64,000 nucleotides of DNA. Source: Leptodactylus fallax. Its lineage: Eukaryota > Chordata > Amphibia > Anura > Leptodactylidae. Positions 8,887 to 58,970 of this stretch are shown here, one piece after another. A program made the translations under genes and the position numbers. The notes under the pieces are model-generated. The model made no database searches, was not told where the DNA came from, and saw only the letters and a program-made list of their open reading frames with translations. The stretch lies in NCBI GenBank assembly GCA_947044405.1, contig CAMRHE010000196.1:1781001-1845000 (forward strand). The letters are read 5' to 3'. Each line of letters begins with the position of its first letter. Positions within the stretch are counted from its first letter, which is position 1.

Positions 8887-9586
8887 TTAAAGGGATCCTA
8901 TCATTCAGAAAGGCCAATTTTTGTAAGACCACGTCGTAATAGCCTTTATAAAGGCTATTCTTCTCCTACCTTTCTTGTTTCGCTCCTCGCCGCCATTTAG
9001 AAGAAATGTTGATTTTTGTTTTTATGCTAATGCATCTTCAGAATGCAGAGGAGGCGTTCCTCCAGTGCTGAAACTGCACAGGGGGCGTCCCCTGTGCTCT
9101 CCTCAGACGCATTTTTGAACTTACGGCGCCGCCTCTCTTCTTCTTTAACAGATGCCTCTTCTTGATGTTATCATCATTCGGGAGACATGCGCTGAGTGCG
9201 CATGTCCATTCGGCCATTTTCCTGTGGCCTATTACACAAGCATACTGCATGTGCTGTATGTAATAGGCCACAGGAAAATGGCCGAACGAAGACACGTACA
9301 AGGATGACGTCAAGAAGAGGCGTCTTTTAAAGAAGAAGAGAGGCGGTGCGGTAAGTTCAAAAATGCGTCTGAGGAGAGCACGGGGGCGCCCCTGTGCAGT
9401 TTCAGCACTGGGGAAACGCCCCCTGTGCATTCTGAAGACGCATTAGCATAAAGATAAAAATAAACATTTCTTCTAAACGGCGGCGAGGAGCGAAACAAGA
9501 AAGGTAGGAGAAGTATAGCCTTTATAAAGGCTATTACGACGTGGTCTTACTAAAATTGGCCTTTCTGAATGATAGGATCCCTTTAA
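8887..9586. mobile_element. T2/Kolobok-type MITE, ~700-bp near-perfect palindrome
   Basis: TTAA at 8887 and 9583 flank a unit starting AGGGATCCTATCATTCAG and ending CTGAATGATAGGATCCCT. The inversion goes on through almost the whole element: TTTATAAAGGCTATT, a CGCTCCTCGCCGCC/GGCGGCGAGGAGCG pair, GAAATGTTGATTT/AAACATTTC, CACAGGGG/CCCCTGTG, GTAATAGGCCACAGGAAAATGG on one arm against CCATTTTCCTGTGGCCTATTAC on the other. The centre is near 9237. Open frames at 9038-9498 are by-products of the palindrome. It is non-coding and would form a very long hairpin. Confidence 0.8.
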
Positions 9587-10956: not shown

Positions 10957-11443
10957 TTAAAGGGGTTGTCCACCTTCAGAACAATATTGAGAAACAAATG
11001 TTATTGTTTGTATAATAAAAAGTTGTACAATTTTCCAATATACTTTCTGTATCAATTCCTCAGTTTTCTAGATCTCTGCTTGCTGTCATTCATTCTGCTT
11101 ACTCACAGTGGATAAAAACCAGTGCATTGTCATGTGATGTACAGTCCATGGTCATGTGACAAACGCACAGGTGCACAGCTTGTTACCAGGCAGATGTATG
11201 ATTACTGAGCTGTGACTATAATGTGCACCGGTGTGTCCATCACATGACCTGGACTGTAGATCACATGACCATGGACGAATTTGTATCCACTGGGAGTAAG
11301 CAGAATAAATGACAGCAAGCAGAGATCTAGAAAACGGTGATGAATTGATTCAGGAAGTATATTGGAAAATTGTACAACTTTTTATTATATAAACAATAAC
11401 GTTTGTCTCTCAATATTGGTCTGAAAGCGGCCAACCCCTATAA
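10957..11443. mobile_element. T2-type MITE (GGGGTTGTCCACCTTCAGA family)
   Basis: It begins TTAAAGGGGTTGTCCACCTT and ends AAGCGGCCAACCCCTATAA (eroded TTAA). The arms match inward for about 200 bp: AATTTTCCAATATACTTTC/GAAAGTATATTGGAAAATT-like, TCATTCATTCTGCTTACTC/GAGTAAGCAGAATAAATGA, CATGTGATGTACAGTCCATG/CATGACCATGG. A second, larger copy is at 58367-58970. Confidence 0.75.
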
Positions 11444-12364: not shown

Positions 12365-12568
12365 TAAGGCTGAGGCCCCATGTTGCGGAAAAGCAGTTTT
12401 TTTTGTTGCAGATTTTGCTGCAGTTTTTTGAGCCAAAGCGAGGAGTGGACTGAGCAGAAGGGAGAAGTATAAGAACTTCCTATATATTTCCTTGCTTTGA
12501 CTCAAAAAAATACAGCTAAATCTGCAACAAAAATAGCTGCGTTTCCGCAATGTGGGGCCTCAGCCTAA
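12365..12568. mobile_element. Foldback MITE, ~200 bp palindromic
   Basis: The left arm AAGGCTGAGGCCCCATGTTGCGG inverts to the right arm CCGCAATGTGGGGCCTCAGCC. Inner arms are TTGTTGCAGATTT/AAATCTGCAACAA and TTTTTTGAGCCAAAGC/GCTTTGACTCAAAAAA. The centre reads AACTTCCTATATATTTCC, which matters for the microsatellite at 51926. Non-coding. Confidence 0.75.
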
Positions 12569-14724: not shown

Positions 14725-14805
14725 TGTTGTACCGTGTTAGCCGTAGAAAGTAGTGGAAGAGTGAAGAAATCAGGCGATACCTTTTAGAGACTAACTGAGT
14801 ATATT
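14725..14805 (-). mobile_element. 3'-end fragment of a Penelope-like element
   Basis: Read on the minus strand it contains CTCAGTTAGTCTCTAAAAGG, TATCGCCTGATTTCTTCAC and CTACGGCTAACACGGTACAAC. The first two match the 3' end of the Penelope-like element at 16.03 kb. It is cut off just before the hammerhead region and is a separate insertion or deletion relic. Confidence 0.6.
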
Positions 14806-15221
14806 TGGTGTTGGATGAAGAGGACTGTATTACAACAATAACAAAAAAAAGCTCAACAAAATGTGCTTTCAGCTGTCGGACACTAGTTACATCACATCTT
14901 TATGGTTTTGGTTATGCTGAGAATACTTCTCCGCTGTGTAACGCTTTCAGTGCCATTGAGGTAGGCATGCCCTGTTTCATGTCTGAAGTAACTTGAGACA
15001 TAATATGATTTTAGAGTTTATGAAAAGACATGTCACAAAGCTGAGGCACAGAAGTAAAGTAAATTTATGATGTCTACAAACCCTTTTACTCAGTGAAATC
15101 ATTCTGTGCTCCCATCTGGGAGGAATTGGAAAGGTACTTGGAACATTCAGCGCTAGATAGATGTCTGTGATCAGTTTGCTGTGGCTTGTGTATATATAAT
15201 AAAAAATAAAGCAGCATAGTA

Positions 15222-15835: not shown

Positions 15836-16108
15836 TTTTTCATATATATGCAAGGGTTCAATTCTTTCCAGGATTATTGTGAAAAGGGACTCCACTTGAG
15901 AATTGTGCAGAAATTCAGGGGCATGTCAGATTAGCAGATAAAGTTTTTACTCAGGTGTGAGGCTTGAAACTTGGTGGTTACCATCTTACAAACAGCAACA
16001 GGTTTAGTGGTCACAAGAGTCTTACAAAAGACAACTAGCTGGATGGTTGCAGAAGAGTTAAGAAATCAGGCAATACCTTTTAGAGGCTAACTGAGTATAT
16101 TTATAAGT

Positions 16109-16150
16109 AAGCTTTCAGAAGCCTAGCTTCCTTCATCAGACATGGTGTTA
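16109..16150 (-). ncRNA. Hammerhead ribozyme motif of the Penelope-like element
   Basis: On the minus strand the conserved boxes are CTGATGA (16139-16133) and GAAA (16116-16113). Between them AGGAAGC-TAG-GCTTCT forms helix II. GAAA runs into the palindrome AAGCTT (16114-16109), the minimal helix III typical of Penelope-element hammerheads, which are thought to cleave best as dimers. Helix I pairing is weaker (GTATAA with TTATAaaTATAC). Hammerheads in the terminal repeats of Penelope-like elements are established (Cervera and De la Peña). Activity of this copy is not shown. Confidence 0.75.
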
Positions 16151-16369
16151 TACAAGAACTGAAAATTCACAGATTTTTTATATACCCTATACACATGGTC
16201 TTCAAAGGATTTTAGAGTCCTTAAAAAAAAAAAAAAAAACTAAGCAAAATGCAATCTAAGTAGAGGAGTTATTTACAACCGGTCAAAAAACAATCTGGAA
16301 AGTTGTGGTGCGTGACAGAGGGATCTGTTATCTGTTTGCTATCAGAAGGTGATTTGTGACCTTCACAGT

Positions 16370-16810
16370 TCATACATAGTGTGACATGAAGCTGGCATGA
16401 ATATTAAGTCCAAATTGCAGAGTTTTAAATTTTTGCATAAACTTGTACTCCCATTGTTTCCTCTCCTCCTGCGTCTTAAACTGTCCCATTAAAACCACAA
16501 CCCGCAAGTCTTCAATAGAGTGGTTTTCTCCGGAGAAATGTGTGGCCACTGGGAAATCGGTTCTGCTGTTATTAATATTGGATCTGTGTGAGTTCTTTCG
16601 CTGACTAAGTCTCTGCCCTGTTTCCCCCACATAGAGGCCTGTGGTGGGACATTGCACACACATTATGAGGTACACCACATTGGAAGACCTGCAGGAAAAT
16701 GTCCCCCTAATTCTGTGCACCTTTTGTGACTGTGGGACAGGTACACTGTCAGCGGTGTGGATGTGCCTGCAGGTCATGCACCTTTTTTGTAGGCAAGGTG
16801 AGGTGCCATT
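16370..16810 (-). pseudogene. GIY-YIG endonuclease domain of the Penelope-like element
   Basis: The frame ends at a stop at 16370. The translation has a Cys/His linker (CLQKRCMTCRHIH), then VVYLI (the GIY strand), YVGETGQRLSQR (the YIG strand with the catalytic Arg region) and ATHF. These nick target DNA for priming in active elements. The longest Met-initiated frame starts at 16777, but homology runs upstream to about 16810, where it overlaps the RT frame's end in a different register. It was therefore once one polyprotein with the RT and is now separated by a frameshift. No change in the visible GIY-YIG core is obvious. Confidence 0.82.
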
Positions 16811-16811
16811 T

Positions 16812-18005
16812 TCAGTTGGGGCCTTCAGGGCACTCTGGACAATAATACACTTGAGGTTTGGTGGTTGTCAAAAAGGAAAGGAGAGGGGGGACTGGAAATA
16901 TGTCCTTGAGTCTGTTGTCCCTATGTAGCACAGGTTGGAGATCCTTGGCAATCCTTCGTAGGATCTCCAGCTGTGGGTTGTAGGTGACAACTAGGGGCAC
17001 TCGGGCTTCTTTCTGGGTCTTTTTATATGTGAGCAGACTGTCTCTCTTAATGGCTGCCGCTTTGTTTAATTGGTTGTCTGTCACTTTTGGTTTGTATCCC
17101 AATCGGAGAAATTTCATCCTCAGATCCAGGAGGTGCTTGTCCAGGTCTGCTTTGTCGGAGCAAATACTATTGTATCGTATAGCCTGGCTGTAGATAATAG
17201 ATTGTCTTGTGTGCTTGGGGTGGAAGCTGTCGTTTCTCAGGTAGGCCGTTCTGTCTGTGGGTTTGTGGTATATTGATGTGAGTAGCCGGTGGTCTTTGAT
17301 GTATATTGTGGTATCCAGAAAGTGAATTTCACTCCCTGAATAGCTAAGTTTAAGGTTGATGGTAGGGTGAAAGTCATTGAAGTCATTATGGAATTGAAGT
17401 AGGGCCTCCTCACCTGCATTCCAGATGACAAGGATATCATCGATATAACAAAGGTAAATCATAGGTTTGGTGGTGCATGTTGATAAATATGCTCCTTCCA
17501 GTTCTGCCATAAAGAGATTTGCATATTGGGGTGCACATCTGGTCCCCATTGAAGTTCCCATTCGCTGTAGATATAGATCCTCTCTAAAGGTAAAATAGTT
17601 GCAGCTAAGGATGAATTGTATGAGCTGCGTTACTGGTTCTGTTGGGAGGTTTTGTTTTGCCAGGTGTACCCGACATGCTACAACTCCATCCTTGTGGGGA
17701 ATGTTGGTATACAGGGATTCCACATCCATGGTGGCCAAAATGGTACCCTCAGGTAGTGGGCCCAGGGCATTCAGTTTGTTAAGAAGGTCAGTAGTGTCCT
17801 GGATATAGCTTGGAGTATCCCTGACAAGGTGTTTTAGGAGATTTTCCACCCAACCTGAGATGTTTTCTGTCAGTGTCCCAATGCCTGAAATGATAGGCCT
17901 CCCAGGGTTGCCATCTTTGTGTATCTTTGGGAGCATATAGAAGCAGCCCGGCCTGGGATCTTGTGGGATACGTCCTTTTATCTGATGGTGGTTGCAGACA
18001 GTCTC
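16812..18005 (-). pseudogene. Reverse transcriptase of the Penelope-like element, 5' incomplete
   Basis: Open from just inside an in-frame stop at 18006-18008 to a stop at 16812, about 397 codons; the first Met is at 17936. Motifs in order from that Met: LPKIHK...PGRPIIS at 2-17, MDVESLYTNIP at about 70-80 (palm, first Asp), GTSMGTRCAP at about 127-136, YIDDI at about 164-168 (catalytic Asp pair), and FLD at about 203-205. This is the Penelope clade RT pattern, related to telomerase. The C-terminus (CPECPEG) starts the Cys-rich linker and then stops early because of a one-base shift in GAAGGCCCCAAC. The N-terminal part of the usual protein is missing. Confidence 0.85.
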
Positions 18006-24300: not shown

Positions 24301-26025
24301 TTTTCCTTGGATACAATTCAGATCATCTTGATACCATTGTGAACTGATTTTAAGAGCGCTCTTGACTGCGAGAAAGAACAAAATTGTAGAGCGTGCGGGA
24401 GGTCATTGCTGCAATGAGTGATCATGGCTAACCTTGGGCTTGTTTAGTCTGTCAGCATGCTAGAGTGGTAAATAGGGACTATACAACACATTGGGTGCAG
24501 CTCAAAGCAATGCTGAGAAAATACTTGATAATTTGCAGCATTAACATGTAATTTATATTGTGAGAATCAGATAAATTACAAGGATAAAATAGCTGTATAT
24601 CTTTATCTTACTACTGTTATTTTATGTAGTATTAAGAAATTATGAAGTCAAAGTAAGACTTGCAATGCAAAGGAGCCCAGTTTTATATCCTAGAAAGAGG
24701 AACCTACTCCTCGGTAGCACCATTTGTTCAAAGCAGACCTGTCGTTTCATTTAACCATGTGTATACATAGGAAGAAACACTATTTCTGGTTATTATTTGA
24801 TTAATATTCTGTGATTTTTAGCAGTATTTCCCTATTACTTGCTATAGCTGTAATTTTGAGTCCTCTCTGAACTGACGGGTGGTGAGTAACTACCATAAAC
24901 TGTACACAGTAAGTAGAGAAGAATCTGCTCTTTAACTCTCACTCAGAAATAACTCCAAGAACAGGAAGGATATATGTAGAGATTACTGACTTGTACCAAT
25001 GTACCAACACTTTAGTTGTGATAGAAAGCTATAGGGTCAGACTAAAAGCTGTCTTTCTTCCCTTGTCTGCCTGTCATCCTGCTCAGTCTTCCCACCTCTT
25101 CTCTCCATAGACTTCTGCAGAGATGAGTTGTCTGAGTCATGTGTCCTACAGACCATCTTGAAACCTATAGAGCAGTGATTTTGACAGTGAAAGTCATTTT
25201 AGCAGAGAGAGTGGGAACAGAGAAACAACTTGATAAGAGGAGAAAGAGGCTTTTTTCTCTGATAAGATATATTGCAAAGTTTTTTCCAATCGCCATTGAT
25301 ACTAGTAGTGTTATATCTTATGTTGCAAAAACAGTCTACGGTTTTACTTCTCTGTTTATAGTTTAATGTAGTGGCTGGTATGATGCTAGTGGTGCAGTTG
25401 TGTGTCCACACATCATTATAACTAGATTCTCAAGGCTCAAAGACCACAAGCCCATAAACTAATTTACATATAATAGTGTACTCCTTGATAATACAATCAT
25501 ACAGTACCAAGTAATACCACTGTATGGGAGCCTAATAATACCTGACCATTGTGACCACTTACTGCATTACTGTCACATCTTTACTGAATAATACTACCAT
25601 TTGGTTACTAATTAGAAAACACTGTTGAAAAAACAATATTCCCATTGTGCAGTGTCCCTATAGTGGTAGATACCAGCTCTAAAATACACAGACCAATGAC
25701 CTCTTCTCTGATCACATTGACTTTGCATTTTCTTCTTTGTCCCACTCAGACAGCCATGGCGACTTCTCCTAACAGTGACTCATCTCTGCGGAGTTGTTGC
25801 CCATATATGTTTGCCTCTTCGGTTTTATATCTTGTCCCCATCCTCTATACAAAGTTTGCATTGTTGTACCCATTTATCACGACCATTCCGCTGCTTCCTG
25901 TATAACTGTGCTTGCTGCTATCCCAGGTGCTTACTGTACCTGCTGTGTAGTAAATTGTATAAGAGAGAGGATCTTAAATATCCAACTGATCCCAAAATAA
26001 GGACACTATCATTTATTCAATGCTG
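21313..26025. other. Long unassigned intron stretch
   Basis: About 4.7 kb with no confident exon, RNA gene or transposon boundary. Items seen: CACACACACAGATGCTGC region near 22000 with clustered C/T, an (TA)n run near 22377, the 32-bp palindrome at 22965, and a CTCTGGAGTCTGAAGAGATATC motif near 23180 that echoes the hairpin at 48107. Open frames at 23245-23589, 25139-25411 and 25645-26026 lack protein features. Confidence 0.4.
22965..22996. repeat. Perfect 32-bp palindrome
   Basis: AAAATTTTGGGTTCAG is followed directly by its exact reverse complement, centred on CAG|CTG at 22980/22981. It has no spacer. It is probably a MITE relic; no function is implied. Confidence 0.7.
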
Positions 26026-26849
26026 AATTATTTGTGGGTATAGGTCTTTAGATAATAAATATCTGAAATATGTCTAAAACTTTTAATAAATAATGTATTA
26101 AAAATATGGAATATTAACATGTGAAAAAAATAAAACATATCATAAGTAGCCATGTGTCACAGATTGAAGATAATGGTCATACACATAGCTTCTTTCTGAT
26201 CAGAAGTGCAGTCTAAAGTCTATTAAAGACCATGTGCATAAGAAGCATAATATTTGGGTGCTGACCCTTTAAATTCCACTAGTAACTCTAGCTTGTCATG
26301 GCCATGTATAGGCTACATATTCCCCTGATGATCCAGCATAGCTGGGGAAACGCGTTATTTTATCTTTAAACTTCTGTAGCAGACTGTGGGGCTGTACCTC
26401 TTTGGGGCTGTAGCTTTTCTACATCTAAAACCTCTAGGAGTACGCTATTTTCAGAGCGCATCCTCACTGGGGTGAATTTATATTAAATTATATTTACTAT
26501 AGTTGTCAGCAATGCCATGCTCTGTGTATGACCACAATAATTACTAATGGACTTTAAAGGGGCAGCACCTATATATTTAGCCTCTTATGCACATGGTCTT
26601 TAATAGACTTTAGACTGCACGTTTGATCATTACCTTTAATTTTTGACATTTAGCTGCTTCTAATATGGGAATTGCATTCGCGGGTATCCCATTTGTGCTT
26701 CACAGTTGAGGGAGTGCTCCTTTATTTATTTTTTTTCACAAGTTAATATTCCGGATTTTTAGCAAATTATGTATTAAAGTTAAGTTTTAGACATATTTCA
26801 GATATGTATTCTCTAAAATCATTTTTGAGACCTATCCCCACAAATAATT
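26026..26849. mobile_element. 0.8-kb foldback element containing a hammerhead motif
   Basis: The ends are AATTATTTGTGGGTATAGGTC (26026) and GACCTATCCCCACAAATAATT (26849), inverted. Further inverted pairs, in order inward: ATATCTGAAATATGTCTAAAA with TTTTAGACATATTTCAGATAT; GGAATATTAACATGTGAAAAAA with TTTTTTCACAAGTTAATATTCC; GTGCAGTCTAAAGTCTATTAAAG with CTTTAATAGACTTTAGACTGCAC; GACCATGTGCATAAGA with TCTTATGCACATGGTC. The middle ~310 bp is single-copy and carries the hammerhead fold at 26312-26381. No ORF. No target duplication was identified, so the mobilising enzyme is unknown. Confidence 0.7.
26312..26381 (+). ncRNA. Hammerhead ribozyme motif, intact core
   Basis: CTGATGA (26325-26331), helix II TCCAGC-ATA-GCTGGG (six pairs including one G-U, 26332-26346), then GAAA (26347-26350) and the self-complementary AACGCGTT (26349-26356) as a minimal helix III. 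All catalytic core bases are consensus and the cut would fall after GTT. A possible distal helix I pairs GCTACA (26312-26317) with TGTAGC (about 26375-26380). It has the same palindromic helix III design as Penelope-element hammerheads. Cleavage is inferred, not shown. Confidence 0.7.
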
Positions 26850-26889
26850 GTGTATACTGTGGTTCAGAAATAATCGTCTCATATCTAAA

Positions 26890-27220
26890 GTTACCCTAGA
26901 AATAATATTGTCAAACAGTGTCCCAGATGCTTATACTGTAGTTTCCCAAATAGTAATATGCTTGCCTTTGGGATTCACACAGTACCCTCTAAGCGGCATC
27001 AACACTGTAATAATGCTCCCGCTTTGTGTCCTTACACAATAATAGCATCCCGTTAGTTTCCCTACACTGCAACAGTGCCCCATTTTTCCCACTTTCTAAA
27101 TGTTTTTCCTATTGAGTAAAAGCCTCTTGAGTTCTCCCCACGCAGTAATAGTGCCCTTAGTTAGCCCCAGCTCAGTAAGTGGCCATTTATCTCCCTTAGA
27201 TAGCAATAGTGCCCAATAAA
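26890..27220. repeat. Degenerate tandem repeat (ACACTGTAATAATGCTCCC units)
   Basis: Roughly nine drifting units of about 35 bp built from ACA.(T/A)GTAATA.TG.CCC and CC.TTTGTGTCC-like words (for example CACACAGTACCC, CACTGTAATAATGC, CACAATAATAGCATCCC, CGCAGTAATAGTGCCC). It is the same style as the array at 55.1-55.8 kb. Confidence 0.5.
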
Positions 27221-35442: not shown

Positions 35443-35736
35443 TTAAAGGGGTTATCCTGCGAAGTGAAAACAGGAGGACCTTTCTCCCACTGTACATTTA
35501 ACTTGATCGCAGCCAGGCTGAATGTGGGCATGACTGGTGGTGGACAGTCATTTTCTTCAATGGGAGTGCCAGAGATAGCTGAAGTGCAGCATTGTGCTAT
35601 CTCCAGCACTCCCATTGAAGTAAATGGGTGCACCATCCACCGCCAGTCATGCCCACCTTCAGCCTGGCTGAGGTCAGGCTGAATGTGCACCGGGAGAAAA
35701 GTCCACACATTTTTGCTTCATTGGATAACCCCTTGA
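35443..35736. mobile_element. T2-type MITE, GTTATCCTGCGAAGT family
   Basis: It starts TTAAAGGGGTTATCCTGCGAAG and ends CATTGGATAACCCCTTGA (eroded TTAA). Internal arms: GGAGTGCCAGAGATAGC/GCTATCTCCAGCACTCCC and TTCAGCCTGGCTG/CAGCCAGGCTGAA. Overlapping ORFs on both strands are products of the palindrome. It is a sister copy of 21058-21312. Confidence 0.75.
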
Positions 35737-40018: not shown

Positions 40019-40113
40019 AATGAATATCTGATGATGCAATAAAATTTTATTTATGTTCAGGTTAAACTTGAAAATTTTTACAGCTTCAATGCATCTATAT
40101 ATATATATATATA

Positions 40114-41731
40114 CAGTACAGACCAAAAGTTTGGACACACCTTCTCATTCCAAGAGTTTTCTGTATTTTCATGACTATAAAAATTGTAGATTCACACTGA
40201 AGGCATCAAAACTATGAATTAACACATGTGGAATTATATACTTAACAAAAAAGTGTGAAACAACTGAAAATATGTCTTATATTCTAGGTTCTTCAAAGTA
40301 GCCACCTTTTGCTTTGATTACTGCTTTGCACACTCTTGGCATTCTCTTGATGAGCTTCAAGAGATAGTCACCTGAAATGGTTTTCACTTCACAGGTGTGC
40401 CCTGTCAGTTTTAATAAGTAGGATTTCTTGCCTTATAAATGGGGTTGGGACCATTAGTTGTGTTGTTCAGAAGTCAGGTGGATACACAACTGAATGGAGT
40501 GTTAGAATTTGTATTATGGCAAGAAAAAAGCAGCTAAGTAAAGAAAAATGAGTGGTCATCATTACTTTAAGAAATGAAGGTCAGTCAGTCCGAAAAATTG
40601 GGAAAATTTTGAAAGTGTCCCCAAGTGCAGTGGCCAAAACCATCAAGCGCTACAAAGAAACTGGCTCACATGAGGACCGCCCCAGGAAAGGAAGACCAAG
40701 AGTCACCTCTGCTGCGGAGGATAAGTTCATCCGAGTCACCAGCCTCAGAAATCGCAGGTTAACAGCAGCTCAGATTAGAGACCAGGTCAATACCACACAG
40801 AGTTCTAGCAGCAGACACATCTCTACAACAACTATTAAGAGGAGACTGTGTGCAGCAGGCCTTCATGGTAAAATTGCTGCTAGGAAACCACTGCTAAGGA
40901 CAGGCAACAAGCAGAAGAGACCTGTTTGGGCTAAAAAACACAAGGAATGGACATTAGACCTGTGGAAATCTGTGCTTTGGTCTGATGAGTCCAAATTTGA
41001 GATCTTTGGTTCCAACCACCGTGTCTTTGTGCGACGCAGAAAAGGTGAATGAATGGACTCTACATGCCTGGTTCCCACTGTGAAGCATGGAGGAGGAGGT
41101 GTGATGGTGTGGGGGTGCTTTGCTGGTGACACTGTTGGGGATTTATTCAAAATTGAAGGAATACTGAACCAGCATGGTTACCACAGCATCTTGCAGCGGC
41201 ATGCAATTCCATCCGGTTTGCGTTTAGTTGGACCATTATTTATTTTTCAACAGGACAATGACCCCAAACACACTTCCAGACTGTGTAAGGGCTATCTGAC
41301 CAAGAAGTAGAGTGATGGGGTGCTATGCCAGATGACCTGGCCTCCACAGTCACCAGACCTGAACCCAATCGAGATGGTTTGGGGTGAGCTGGACCGCAGA
41401 GTGAAGGCAAAAGGGCCAACAAGTGCTAAGCATCTCTGGGAACTCCTTCAAGACTGTTGGAAGACCATTTCAGGTGACTAGCTCTTGAAGCTCATCAAGA
41501 GAATGCCAAGAGTGTGCAAAGCAGTAATCAAAGCAAAAGTTGGCTACTTTGAAGAACCTAGAATATAAGACATATTTTCAGATGTTTCACACTTTTTTGT
41601 TAAGTATATAATTCCACATGTGTTAATTCATAGTTTTGATGCCTTCAGTGTGAATCTACAATTTTTATAGTTATGAAAATACAGAAAACTCTTGGAATGA
41701 GAAGGTGTGTCCAAACTTTTGGTCTATACTG
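40114..41731 (+). mobile_element. Tc1-like transposon, 1618 bp, long inverted repeats
   Basis: It starts CAGTACAGACCAAAAGTTTGG and ends CCAAACTTTTGGTCTATACTG, with TA at 40112-40113 and 41732-41733. It sits in an (AT)n run. The inverted arms extend about 268 bp (40114-40381 against 41464-41731), long enough for the right arm to overlap the last part of the transposase gene. The arms are highly similar. Full length but inactive: see the transposase entry. Confidence 0.9.
40516..41568 (+). pseudogene. Tc1-like transposase, full length with four in-frame stops
   Basis: Starts at ATG 40516 (MARKKQLSKEK) and stays in one frame for 350 codons to TAA at 41566. It has an N-terminal paired-like HTH (about 12-120: SVRKIGKILKVSPSAVAKTI, then a GRPR-like linker RKGRPR) and an RNase H-like DDE domain with D157 (WSDES), D247 (QQDNDP) and E286 (SPDLNPIE). 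There are 38 residues between D247 and E286, the spacing of the DD38E (Intruder) group, not the usual DD34E. Internal stops: TGA 40549, TGA 41050, TAG 41308, TAG 41479. Both TGAs sit where CGA would fit, so CpG decay is likely. No indels are visible. Confidence 0.9.
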
Positions 41732-41737
41732 TATATA

Positions 41738-41773
<36 letters not shown>

Positions 41774-42490
41774 AGCATGTTTACAAATAGTGTTGTTTAC
41801 AAATATTCCGTTTTTTTGTGTTTTACTCTCCTGTGCAGGCCTATATATTTCTATGCAGAGACTTAGCTACATGGGTGACAGCTGCAACTTGTCCCTATGC
41901 CGGGGGGCCTACCCTCACCAAACACTGTTTGCTAAAGCAATTCTAGCAGAATCCTGTAGCTGTTGGCTCGCAAAGAAACCCACATACGCTTTCATGTAAT
42001 CTGGCATTGTGATTAGATATGTGTGTGGCAGGGAGGAGGACCTTTTGCTACTCTTCACTCACTTACCTGGCCAGCCCAGAAGTCCAGACAATAGTGTATA
42101 TAGGTAATAAGTTTGTTCAGCCCTAATACGGTATATCTTCTTGTTCCTTATCCATATGAGATTGAAGAGCCCAAAGGAGTTACATGTATAATAATGCTTT
42201 TCCAGGTTTTCATGCCCTGGACTTGTCTGCTGCTAAGAGAAATTGCTCTCTAATTCATAGAGCGTTCAGCTGAAAGCTCCCTTATTGTATAGGGATTAGG
42301 TTTATAACCAATCTACTGCTGACAGACTCCCTATAAACAATCAATTGTTTAAGATCTAATAGAAGTCAGTAGCAGCTGACTTGGCGACATGGTTTTCAGC
42401 CATATCCTGACTGCATCATGGCCATGTCTGGCCTTGCCGTAAAGAAACACTCCCACAAAAAGTTGTCACACTGGTAATGCAGATGGTATA
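41732..42490. other. Unassigned intron sequence between two Tc1 elements
   Basis: It begins with the remainder of an (AT)n run and a poly(T) tract at about 41742-41769. No exon or repeat family was recognised in the rest. Confidence 0.45.
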
Positions 42491-44129
<1,639 letters not shown>

Positions 44130-44846
44130 TAAATAGCATTGCAAAATTATACGCTCTGTTCTGGTCCGAGCTTCTACCACACTAACTGTTTTGTTGTTGA
44201 GCAGGGATAGACAGGTGGACATTGGGGGAAAGTTGACAGTTGGGGTATGATAACAAGTACAGGGGGCCCAAGTTGAACTCATGTTACTGGGTCCATGAGC
44301 CTTTAGCTATGTACCTGTTTCTGTGGTTAGAGATATACATATTTATGTCAATTTGTCTTACTACTTAATAGAGAGAATAACTGCACAGTCAGTATACACA
44401 GGCTTTGTCTGTGCTCTGATCCCTAGTAGACACACAGTTCTGCCATGTAGTTGTAGACACAAAACGGTATATTTTTAAGACTTTTTACAAAGTTGCTTTG
44501 TTAGAGGATATTTTGGCTACAAAATTCTTCATAACATTCCATCATTCCATGGGAACAGAGGGCCCTGTACTAACTAAGCTTCTTCATACTAGTTTCAAGT
44601 CCCCAGATCGGCTGTATATGAGGTTTACTTCAGTGCTGTATAGTTTGTCAGTGAGGTCTTTCTAACATGAATGTATTGTGTGTGTTCCTATTTCCCTAAT
44701 ATATTTTGTCAAATATAAAATACCATAAGGGTAGATTTACACTGAGTACCACTAGTAGTTTTAATATAAACTAGCCCAGGTTTTCCTATCTGGTTGCCTC
44801 ATAAACTACGGTATACTGTTTTATACTTTATGTTTTCTTATTGTAG
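44130..44846. other. Unassigned intron sequence before the third atg10 exon
   Basis: No element was recognised. The last ~20 bases form the pyrimidine-rich acceptor of the exon at 44847. Confidence 0.45.
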
Positions 44847-48144: not shown

Positions 48145-49580
48145 ATAATAATAGCACTGTAGGGCCCCTGTGGATAGCGTATTATACTGTGTGGGGCCAC
48201 TGTAGAGCATTATACTAGGGAAGGGGCCCTCTGGATAGCATGTTATATTCTGTGAGGCCTCTGTGGAAAATTATAATGTGGGGGGAGGAGGCTCTGGAGA
48301 TAATGTTATATTATATGGGGCCACTTTGGAGCATTATGCTCTCCAGAGGGGCCTCCCAGTATAATGCTCCACAGTGGCCCCACACAGTACAATATGCTCT
48401 CCAGAGGGGCCCCCCAGTATAATGCTCCAAAGTGGCCCCATAGAATATAACATGTTCTCCAGAGGGCCCCCTCCCCAGTATAATGCTCCACAGTGGCCCC
48501 ACACAGTATAATATGCTCTCCAGAGCCCCCGCCAGTATAATGCTCCGCGGTTTCCCCACACAGTATAATATGCTCTCCAGAGGGGCCCCCCAGTATATTA
48601 TACTGTGTGGGGCCACTGTGGAGCATTATACTGGGGGGTCTCTGGAGAGCATATTATACTGTTTTGGGCCGCTGTGGAGTATTATACTGGGGAAACCTCT
48701 CTGTGGAGGCCATTTCTGGAGCATGTTATACTGAGTGGGGTCACTGTGAAGCATTATTCTGGGGGGGCCATCAGCAGAGCATATTATATTGCGTGGCGCC
48801 ACTGTTGGGCATTATTCGGGGGGGGACTAATGAGCATTATACTAGGGGGCCCTCTGGGGAGCATATTATACTGCGTGGGGCCTATTGTGGAAAATTATAC
48901 TGGGGGGACGCTCTGGGGAGCATAATATATTGCGTGGGCCACTGTGGCGCAAAATACTGGAGGGGGCACGGTGGAGCATTATACTAGCGGGGGCCCTCTG
49001 GGGAGCATATTATACTATGGGCCACTGTGGAGCTTTATACTGGGGAAAGGGACAGTGTAGGGAGCCTGTTATACTGTGTGGGGCCACTGTGGAGTGTATT
49101 ATATTGTGTGGGGCTTTTCGGGAGTATATGATACTCTGTGGGGCCATTGTAGAGCATTATACTGTGGGGGACTGTGGGGAACATATTATACTGTGTGGAG
49201 GTCATTATGGAGCATGTTATACTGTGTTAGGCCACTGGAGCATTATACTGGGGGGGCACTGTGGGGTGCATATTATACTGTATGCAGCATATTATATTGT
49301 GTGGGGCTGCTGGGGAGCATATTGCACTGTCTGGGGCCACTAAGGGGTAGTATACTGTGTGGGCCACTGTGGAGTATTATACTGTGTGGAGCCTTACATA
49401 CTATGTGGGGCCACTATGGGGGGGCTCAGGGGAGCATTTTATACTGTGTGGGGTCACTGTGGAGCATTATATACCATGTGGGGAAACTGGAGGGCTCAGG
49501 AGAGCATTGTATACTGTGGAGCATTATATACCATGTGGAGCATTATACTGTGGGGGAGGGGCTCACAATTCCTGCTGGCA
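48145..49580. repeat. Tandem array, ~57-bp unit, with an internal strand switch
   Basis: The unit is roughly GAGCATATTATACTGTGTGG, GGCCACTGTGGAGCATTATA, CTGGGGGGCCCTCTGG. About 48330-48598 the units run in the reverse-complement orientation; from 48599 onward they run forward, so the switch makes a long inverted repeat centred near 48598. Units decay towards 49580. Reading frames with repeated WGHCGALY or WSIILGG motifs are artefacts of the repeat. Confidence 0.85.
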
Positions 49581-58366: not shown

Positions 58367-58970
58367 TTAAAGGGGTTGTCCACTTTCAGACCAATATTAA
58401 GAGTCAAATGTTATCGTTATATTATAAAAAGTTGTACAATTTTCCAATATACTTTCTGTATCAATTTTTCATAGTTTTCTAGCTCTCTGCTTGCTGTCAT
58501 TCATTCTGCTTACTCCTAGTATATAAAAATCAGTCCATGGTCATGTGATGTACAGTCTATGGTCATGTGATGTACAGTCTATGGTCATGTGATATACAGT
58601 CCATTGTCATGTGATGAACACACAGGTGCACAGCTCGTTACCAGGCAGATGTCTGATTACTGAGCTGTGACTACAACGAGCCGTGCACCTGTGTGCCCAT
58701 TACATGACCATGGACTGTATATCACATGACCATGGACTGCACATCACATGACCTTGGACTGAGTATCACATGACCATGGACTGTATATCACATGACCATG
58801 GACTGATTTTTTTTTTTTTATCCACTGAAAGTAAACAATGAATGAGCAGAGATCGAGAAACCCATGATAAATTGATACAGAAAGTATATTGGAAAATTGT
58901 AGAACTTTTTATTATACAAACAATAACATTTGTCTCTTAATGTTGGTCTGAAACTGGACAACTCCTTTAA
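58367..58970. mobile_element. T2-type MITE, larger copy of 10957-11443, with tandem amplification
   Basis: It starts TTAAAGGGGTTGTCCACTTTC and ends GAAACTGGACAACTCCTTTAA, with TTAA at both edges. Both arms contain a ~22-bp unit (TGGTCATGTGATGTACAGTC and its inverse) repeated four to five times, where the 10957 copy has about two. The extra units explain its larger size (604 against 487 bp). Confidence 0.8.

Follow-up and report, generated by a model that had tools for sequence, protein, structure and literature searches.

A hammerhead-like core without helix I in the loop of a MITE-like foldback unit of Leptodactylus fallax

The window, a 64-kb stretch of the Leptodactylus fallax genome, contains a foldback unit of 824 bp at positions 26026-26849. 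The unit resolves into four colinear inverted blocks that are 83-95% complementary. A hammerhead-like core lies on the plus strand in the loop of this foldback, at 26325-26356. The blocks, the arms and the parts of the core are as follows.

26026-26047/26828-26849: inverted block 1, 22 nt, 95% complementary
26047-26082/26782-26817: inverted block 2, 36 nt, 94% complementary
26082-26135/26725-26778: inverted block 3, 54 nt, 83% complementary
26197-26285/26541-26629: inverted block 4, 89 nt, 89% complementary
26026..26285, plus strand: left arm of the foldback, inverted blocks against 26541-26849, with a poor match at about 26136-26196
26541..26849, minus strand: right arm of the foldback, inverted blocks against 26026-26285, with a poor match at about 26630-26724
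26286..26540, no strand: loop that separates the arms, single-copy within the unit
26325..26331, plus strand: CTGATGA, catalytic strand C3-A9 (from the sequence)
26332..26346, plus strand: helix II, TCCAGC-ATA-GCTGGG, six pairs with U-G next to the core (from the pair list)
26347-26350, plus strand: GAAA (from the sequence)
26351-26354, plus strand: CGCG palindromic tetraloop, closed by A15.1-U16.1 (from the sequence)
26355-26356, plus strand: TT, including the cut-site base U17 at 26356 (from the sequence)
26357..26364, plus strand: expected place of the helix I 3' strand (ATTTTATC after the cut site), unpaired (0/8 pairs with 26317-26324)

An initial annotation of this DNA had described an 824-bp unit with four successive inverted-repeat blocks, and the four blocks bear this out, as does a single gapped match of arm against arm that runs across them (214/310, E 3e-35). 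The arms are only partly colinear, given the poorly matching stretches and a 16-nt inverted match (26174-26189 with 26519-26534) that lies outward of the 89-nt block on the left and inward of it, on the loop side, on the right. The longest stop-free stretch in the whole unit is 42 aa, and the unit is noncoding. With long inverted arms and no coding sequence, it has the make-up of a foldback or long-TIR MITE. The fold of the whole unit is a long rod (-325.8 kcal/mol), which is a product of the inverted arms; an HDV-like or viroid-like rod was set aside for this reason.

The unit begins with AATTATTTGTGGG and ends with CCCCACAAATAATT. No clear target-site duplication is present at these ends. 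AATT occurs at 26026 and 26846 and is uninformative as a target duplication because it is a palindrome that the inverted repeat supplies anyway, and other short matches are out of register. There is no direct terminal repeat in 25700-27200.

The core has the catalytic bases CUGANGA and GAAA, A15.1-U16.1 and H17 of a type I hammerhead. Its helix II adjoins both core strands with six pairs, one of them U-G. The position names used for the core bases (A15.1-U16.1, and U17 at 26356) follow the usual naming for hammerheads. The sequence and the pair list agree with the earlier description of CTGATGA, a six-pair helix II and GAAA at this place, and the cut that had been proposed after 26356 falls where a type I hammerhead would cut. 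The same description named a palindromic helix III. The palindrome is present as the CGCG loop, and the helix itself, when the core is read as type I, is the single pair A15.1-U16.1 closed by that tetraloop.

The core had also been called intact, and here the sequence disagrees. Helix I is absent: none of the eight core-adjacent positions pairs between the ATTTTATC strand at 26357-26364 and 26317-26324 before CTGATGA. Between 26295-26324 and 26357-26395 there are 18 helices of at least 4 bp, but not one has both of its strands within 6 nt of the core. Of those in its neighbourhood, the longest joins GCTACA at 26312-26317 to TGTAGC at 26375-26380, 7 and 18 nt away. Because helix I is missing, the strand with the cut site is left unheld. 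Cleavage as a dimer is also disfavoured, since a dimer would need the same helix I strands to pair; these strands do not, and a dimeric hammerhead was set aside. A type III hammerhead was likewise set aside, as no upstream cut site with a fitting helix III strand was seen by eye. In the local minimum-energy fold, helix II is kept and the CTGATGA strand is paired elsewhere; this is a weak test, as the fold of the Penelope-like control core described below is also without its helix II. The candidate hammerhead is probably inactive, judging from its sequence, and would not be expected to cleave as a monomer or as a dimer, as both need helix I. Random letters would usually pair at more than zero of eight positions, and simple decay of a once-paired helix I is therefore only one reading of the absence. 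It would equally agree with chance, or with a breakpoint that lies at the cut site or close to it.

Chance occurrence of the core was assessed in 2000 simulated 64-kb windows with the dinucleotide frequencies of the real window. The descriptor of the core (CTGANGA, helix II and GAAA) has 50 matches in these windows when helix II must have 4 bp or more, 20 when it must have 5 bp or more (about 0.01 per 64 kb) and 2 when 4 bp or more are combined with a palindromic tetraloop, U16.1 and H17 (0.001 per 64 kb). These figures flatter the core, since the motif was already known when the descriptor was drawn up. A separate simulation of 300 windows gives 0.02 matches per window at 4 bp or more and 0 at 5 bp or more. 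The real window has two matches, the candidate core on the plus strand and a core at 16139 on the minus strand. A core of this kind arises only rarely by chance in the simulated windows. Viral contigs, which have at least 120 matches to the pattern CTGANGAN{8,30}GAAACGCGT, served as a further chance control: among the 120 matches listed, a helix II of 5 bp or longer is present in 1. The same contigs contain 0 matches to a 25-nt pattern from the arm, 3 stretches with a frog-like core pattern (none with a helix II by eye) and 69 stretches with a Penelope-like core pattern (0/69 with a helix II of at least 4 bp). No relatives of the unit emerge from these viral-contig pattern scans.

The second core in the window belongs to a Penelope-like element and was used as a control.

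16081-18005, minus strand: Penelope-like element containing RVT_1 and GIY-YIG, followed on the 3' side by a hammerhead-like core
16812-18005, minus strand: RVT_1 (E 1.1e-10)
16370-16867, minus strand: GIY-YIG (E 4.1e-6)
16139-16113, minus strand: control hammerhead-like core, 3' of the Penelope-like element

Among the best 120 of 965 protein matches to the reverse transcriptase stretch, the best named matches are from turtles and frogs, and those named in this list include Chrysemys picta, Caretta caretta, Pelobates cultripes and Ranitomeya imitator. A 51-bp piece of the 3' end of the element (16052-16102) recurs at 14756-14806 with 94% identity. Minimal hammerheads are reported in Penelope-like elements in extracts of two papers (PMC6155905, PMC11167929). 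In the control core, CTGATGA, helix II with its 3-nt loop and GAAA follow one another just as they do in the candidate, at equal distances. The two differ in helix I and in the letters that follow: in the control the first two helix I positions pair (3/8 in all) and the sequence reads GAAAGCTTAC, whereas the candidate pairs at 0/8 and reads GAAACGCGTT.

No Rfam family is matched at its gathering score anywhere in the 64 kb, and no Rfam hammerhead is found up to E 10 in 26000-26870 or in 26300-26390. A covariance-model search of this kind had been suggested as a check in the initial annotation. It returns no match at the candidate and carries little weight, because the core at 16139, the control, is missed by Rfam too; the lack of a match at the candidate is weak evidence.

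The candidate resembles the type I hammerheads of amphibians (newt satellite, axolotl HHR_Amex1 and Xenopus repeats), as far as their published descriptions in extract allow comparison, in having CTGATGA, helix II and GAAA, and in combining a one-pair helix III with a palindromic tetraloop. According to the available part of PMC7229834, hammerheads of the axolotl and other amphibians have a single-pair helix III with a palindromic tetraloop and cleave poorly as monomers and better as dimers. Repeat-associated hammerheads are reported from Xenopus in the available part of PMC3088659. Unlike the amphibian type, the candidate is without helix I, the pair at the base of its helix II is U-G, the loop of that helix measures 3 nt, and it is located in a foldback instead of a tandem repeat of approximately 330-350 bp.

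The unit shares with retrozymes a hammerhead-like core and the lack of coding sequence. Retrozymes carry hammerheads in direct repeats, whereas the unit has one core, inverted arms and no direct repeats around it. It had earlier been suggested that the unit might be retrozyme-like. This suggestion is not supported, as the only other match to the descriptor in the window is 10 kb away on the other strand, beside the Penelope-like element. A retrozyme was set aside on account of the single core.

The unit is read here, with roughly even confidence, as an old non-autonomous foldback, a long and MITE-like inverted repeat, with a broken amphibian-type hammerhead core that is carried passively. The colinear arms and the lack of a long reading frame favour an old foldback. 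A hammerhead relic is favoured by the rarity of the core in the simulations and by the form of helix III, which agrees with the available part of PMC7229834. The motif would be derived from a repeat-borne hammerhead of the kind that frogs and salamanders are reported to have, the foldback would have carried the core passively, and a transposase working on the ends of the element would once have mobilised it in trans. Mobile-family status, and the membership of the core in such a family, are unproven because no second copy of the unit is present within the 64-kb window. The earlier alternative of a MITE that captured a ribozyme is supported as regards the MITE-like foldback and not supported as regards a working hammerhead, as helix I is missing; a captured or inherited ribozyme relic in a MITE-like unit is possible. 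The main rival, which is rather unlikely, is that the core is a chance match in an ordinary foldback and was never a ribozyme. The absence of helix I and of any Rfam hammerhead is consistent with a chance match, as are the U-G pair at the base of helix II and the choice of the motif in a reading for striking features of any kind, with this window presumably one among many. It is harder to reconcile with the expectation of about 0.01 cores per 64 kb at a helix II of at least 5 bp, or 0.001 with the tetraloop features, and with the letters GAAACGCGT(T), which agree with the published amphibian type. A live ribozyme, in a foldback or rod-like, retrozyme-like RNA that cuts its own transcript, is highly improbable. 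The conserved catalytic bases are present and the whole unit folds as a long rod (-325.8 kcal/mol), but there is no helix I, the unit has a single core and the rod follows from the inverted arms. The pairing of the CTGATGA strand elsewhere in the local fold also argues against activity, weakly, since helix II of the control is likewise unformed.

Derivation of the unit from a Penelope-like element, with inverted pLTR pieces surrounding a pLTR hammerhead, is unlikely. The element with RVT_1, GIY-YIG and its own hammerhead-like core is only 10 kb from the unit, and Penelope elements typically have inverted pLTRs and palindromes in them, according to the available part of PMC3846280. In addition, 26212-26240 matches 16216-16188 on the minus strand (24/29, E 0.003), and the two pieces lie on corresponding sides of their cores. 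The score of this match is reached by 2/1000 shuffles, but the segments for the shuffle test were chosen after the match had been seen. The piece ranks first among 1044 window pieces, but the runner-up scores 31 against 33, or 18.5 against 19 under other scoring. The pLTR likeness consists of one 29-bp match, which is too short to class the unit as Penelope-like. The region after the core differs (GAAACGCGTT in the unit, GAAAGCTTAC in the Penelope-like control), and the shared piece faces outward on both sides of the unit (tail-to-tail), while head-to-head is the most frequent arrangement in the same extract of PMC3846280. Coding for a telomerase-like reverse transcriptase or GIY-YIG is absent from the unit, in which the longest stop-free stretch is 42 aa; non-autonomous Penelope copies would lack coding anyway.

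A broader proposal is that amphibians have a DNA-type foldback family whose members regularly have a hammerhead core in the loop; intact copies would have helix I, and their read-through transcripts would cut themselves inside the hairpin loop. This is quite improbable, and the present copy more probably represents a relic or a near-chance match. If the proposal were true, the ribozyme would have been spread by a cut-and-paste element and not by a retro-element. Intact copies with a working hammerhead would mean that ribozymes can also spread by way of DNA elements, from which domesticated ribozymes might arise. In the titles and extracts of the literature surveyed, animal hammerheads are linked with retro-elements, satellites and a small number of introns. 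Among the titles and abstract openings, no description of a hammerhead inside a foldback DNA element was found, which is not proof of absence. The main lesson of the locus is that the letters CTGATGA...GAAA are insufficient and that helix I must be checked.

A foldback as such is ordinary in this DNA, because at least five others are present in the same 64 kb, as seen in the 25 longest of 149 inverted pairs. They are the following inverted pairs.

8887-9586: foldback
10957-11443: foldback
12367-12566: foldback
35446-35734: foldback
58417-58919: foldback

The unit has no similarity to these five foldbacks at E 0.01. The foldbacks at 8887-9586, 10957-11443 and 58417-58919 (487-700 bp) have long imperfect inverted arms like those of the unit. 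The unit starts AATTATTTGTGGG, whereas 8887-9586 (at both ends) and 10957-11443 (at one end) start TTAAAGGG. The 700-bp foldback at 8887-9586 has TTAAAGGGATCC at both ends and is 86% self-complementary over its length. The foldbacks at 10957-11443 and 58417-58919 are related to one another (77-88% in the longer pieces) and have different ends.

The window also contains two Tc1/mariner-type elements with transposase fragments. Their long terminal inverted repeats measure 283 nt (98%) in the element at 40103-41742 and 152 nt (91%) in the one at 42489-44131. A dense minisatellite with units of approximately 28-30 bp occupies 48156-49553 and shows up as many inverted repeats because its units occur in both orientations.
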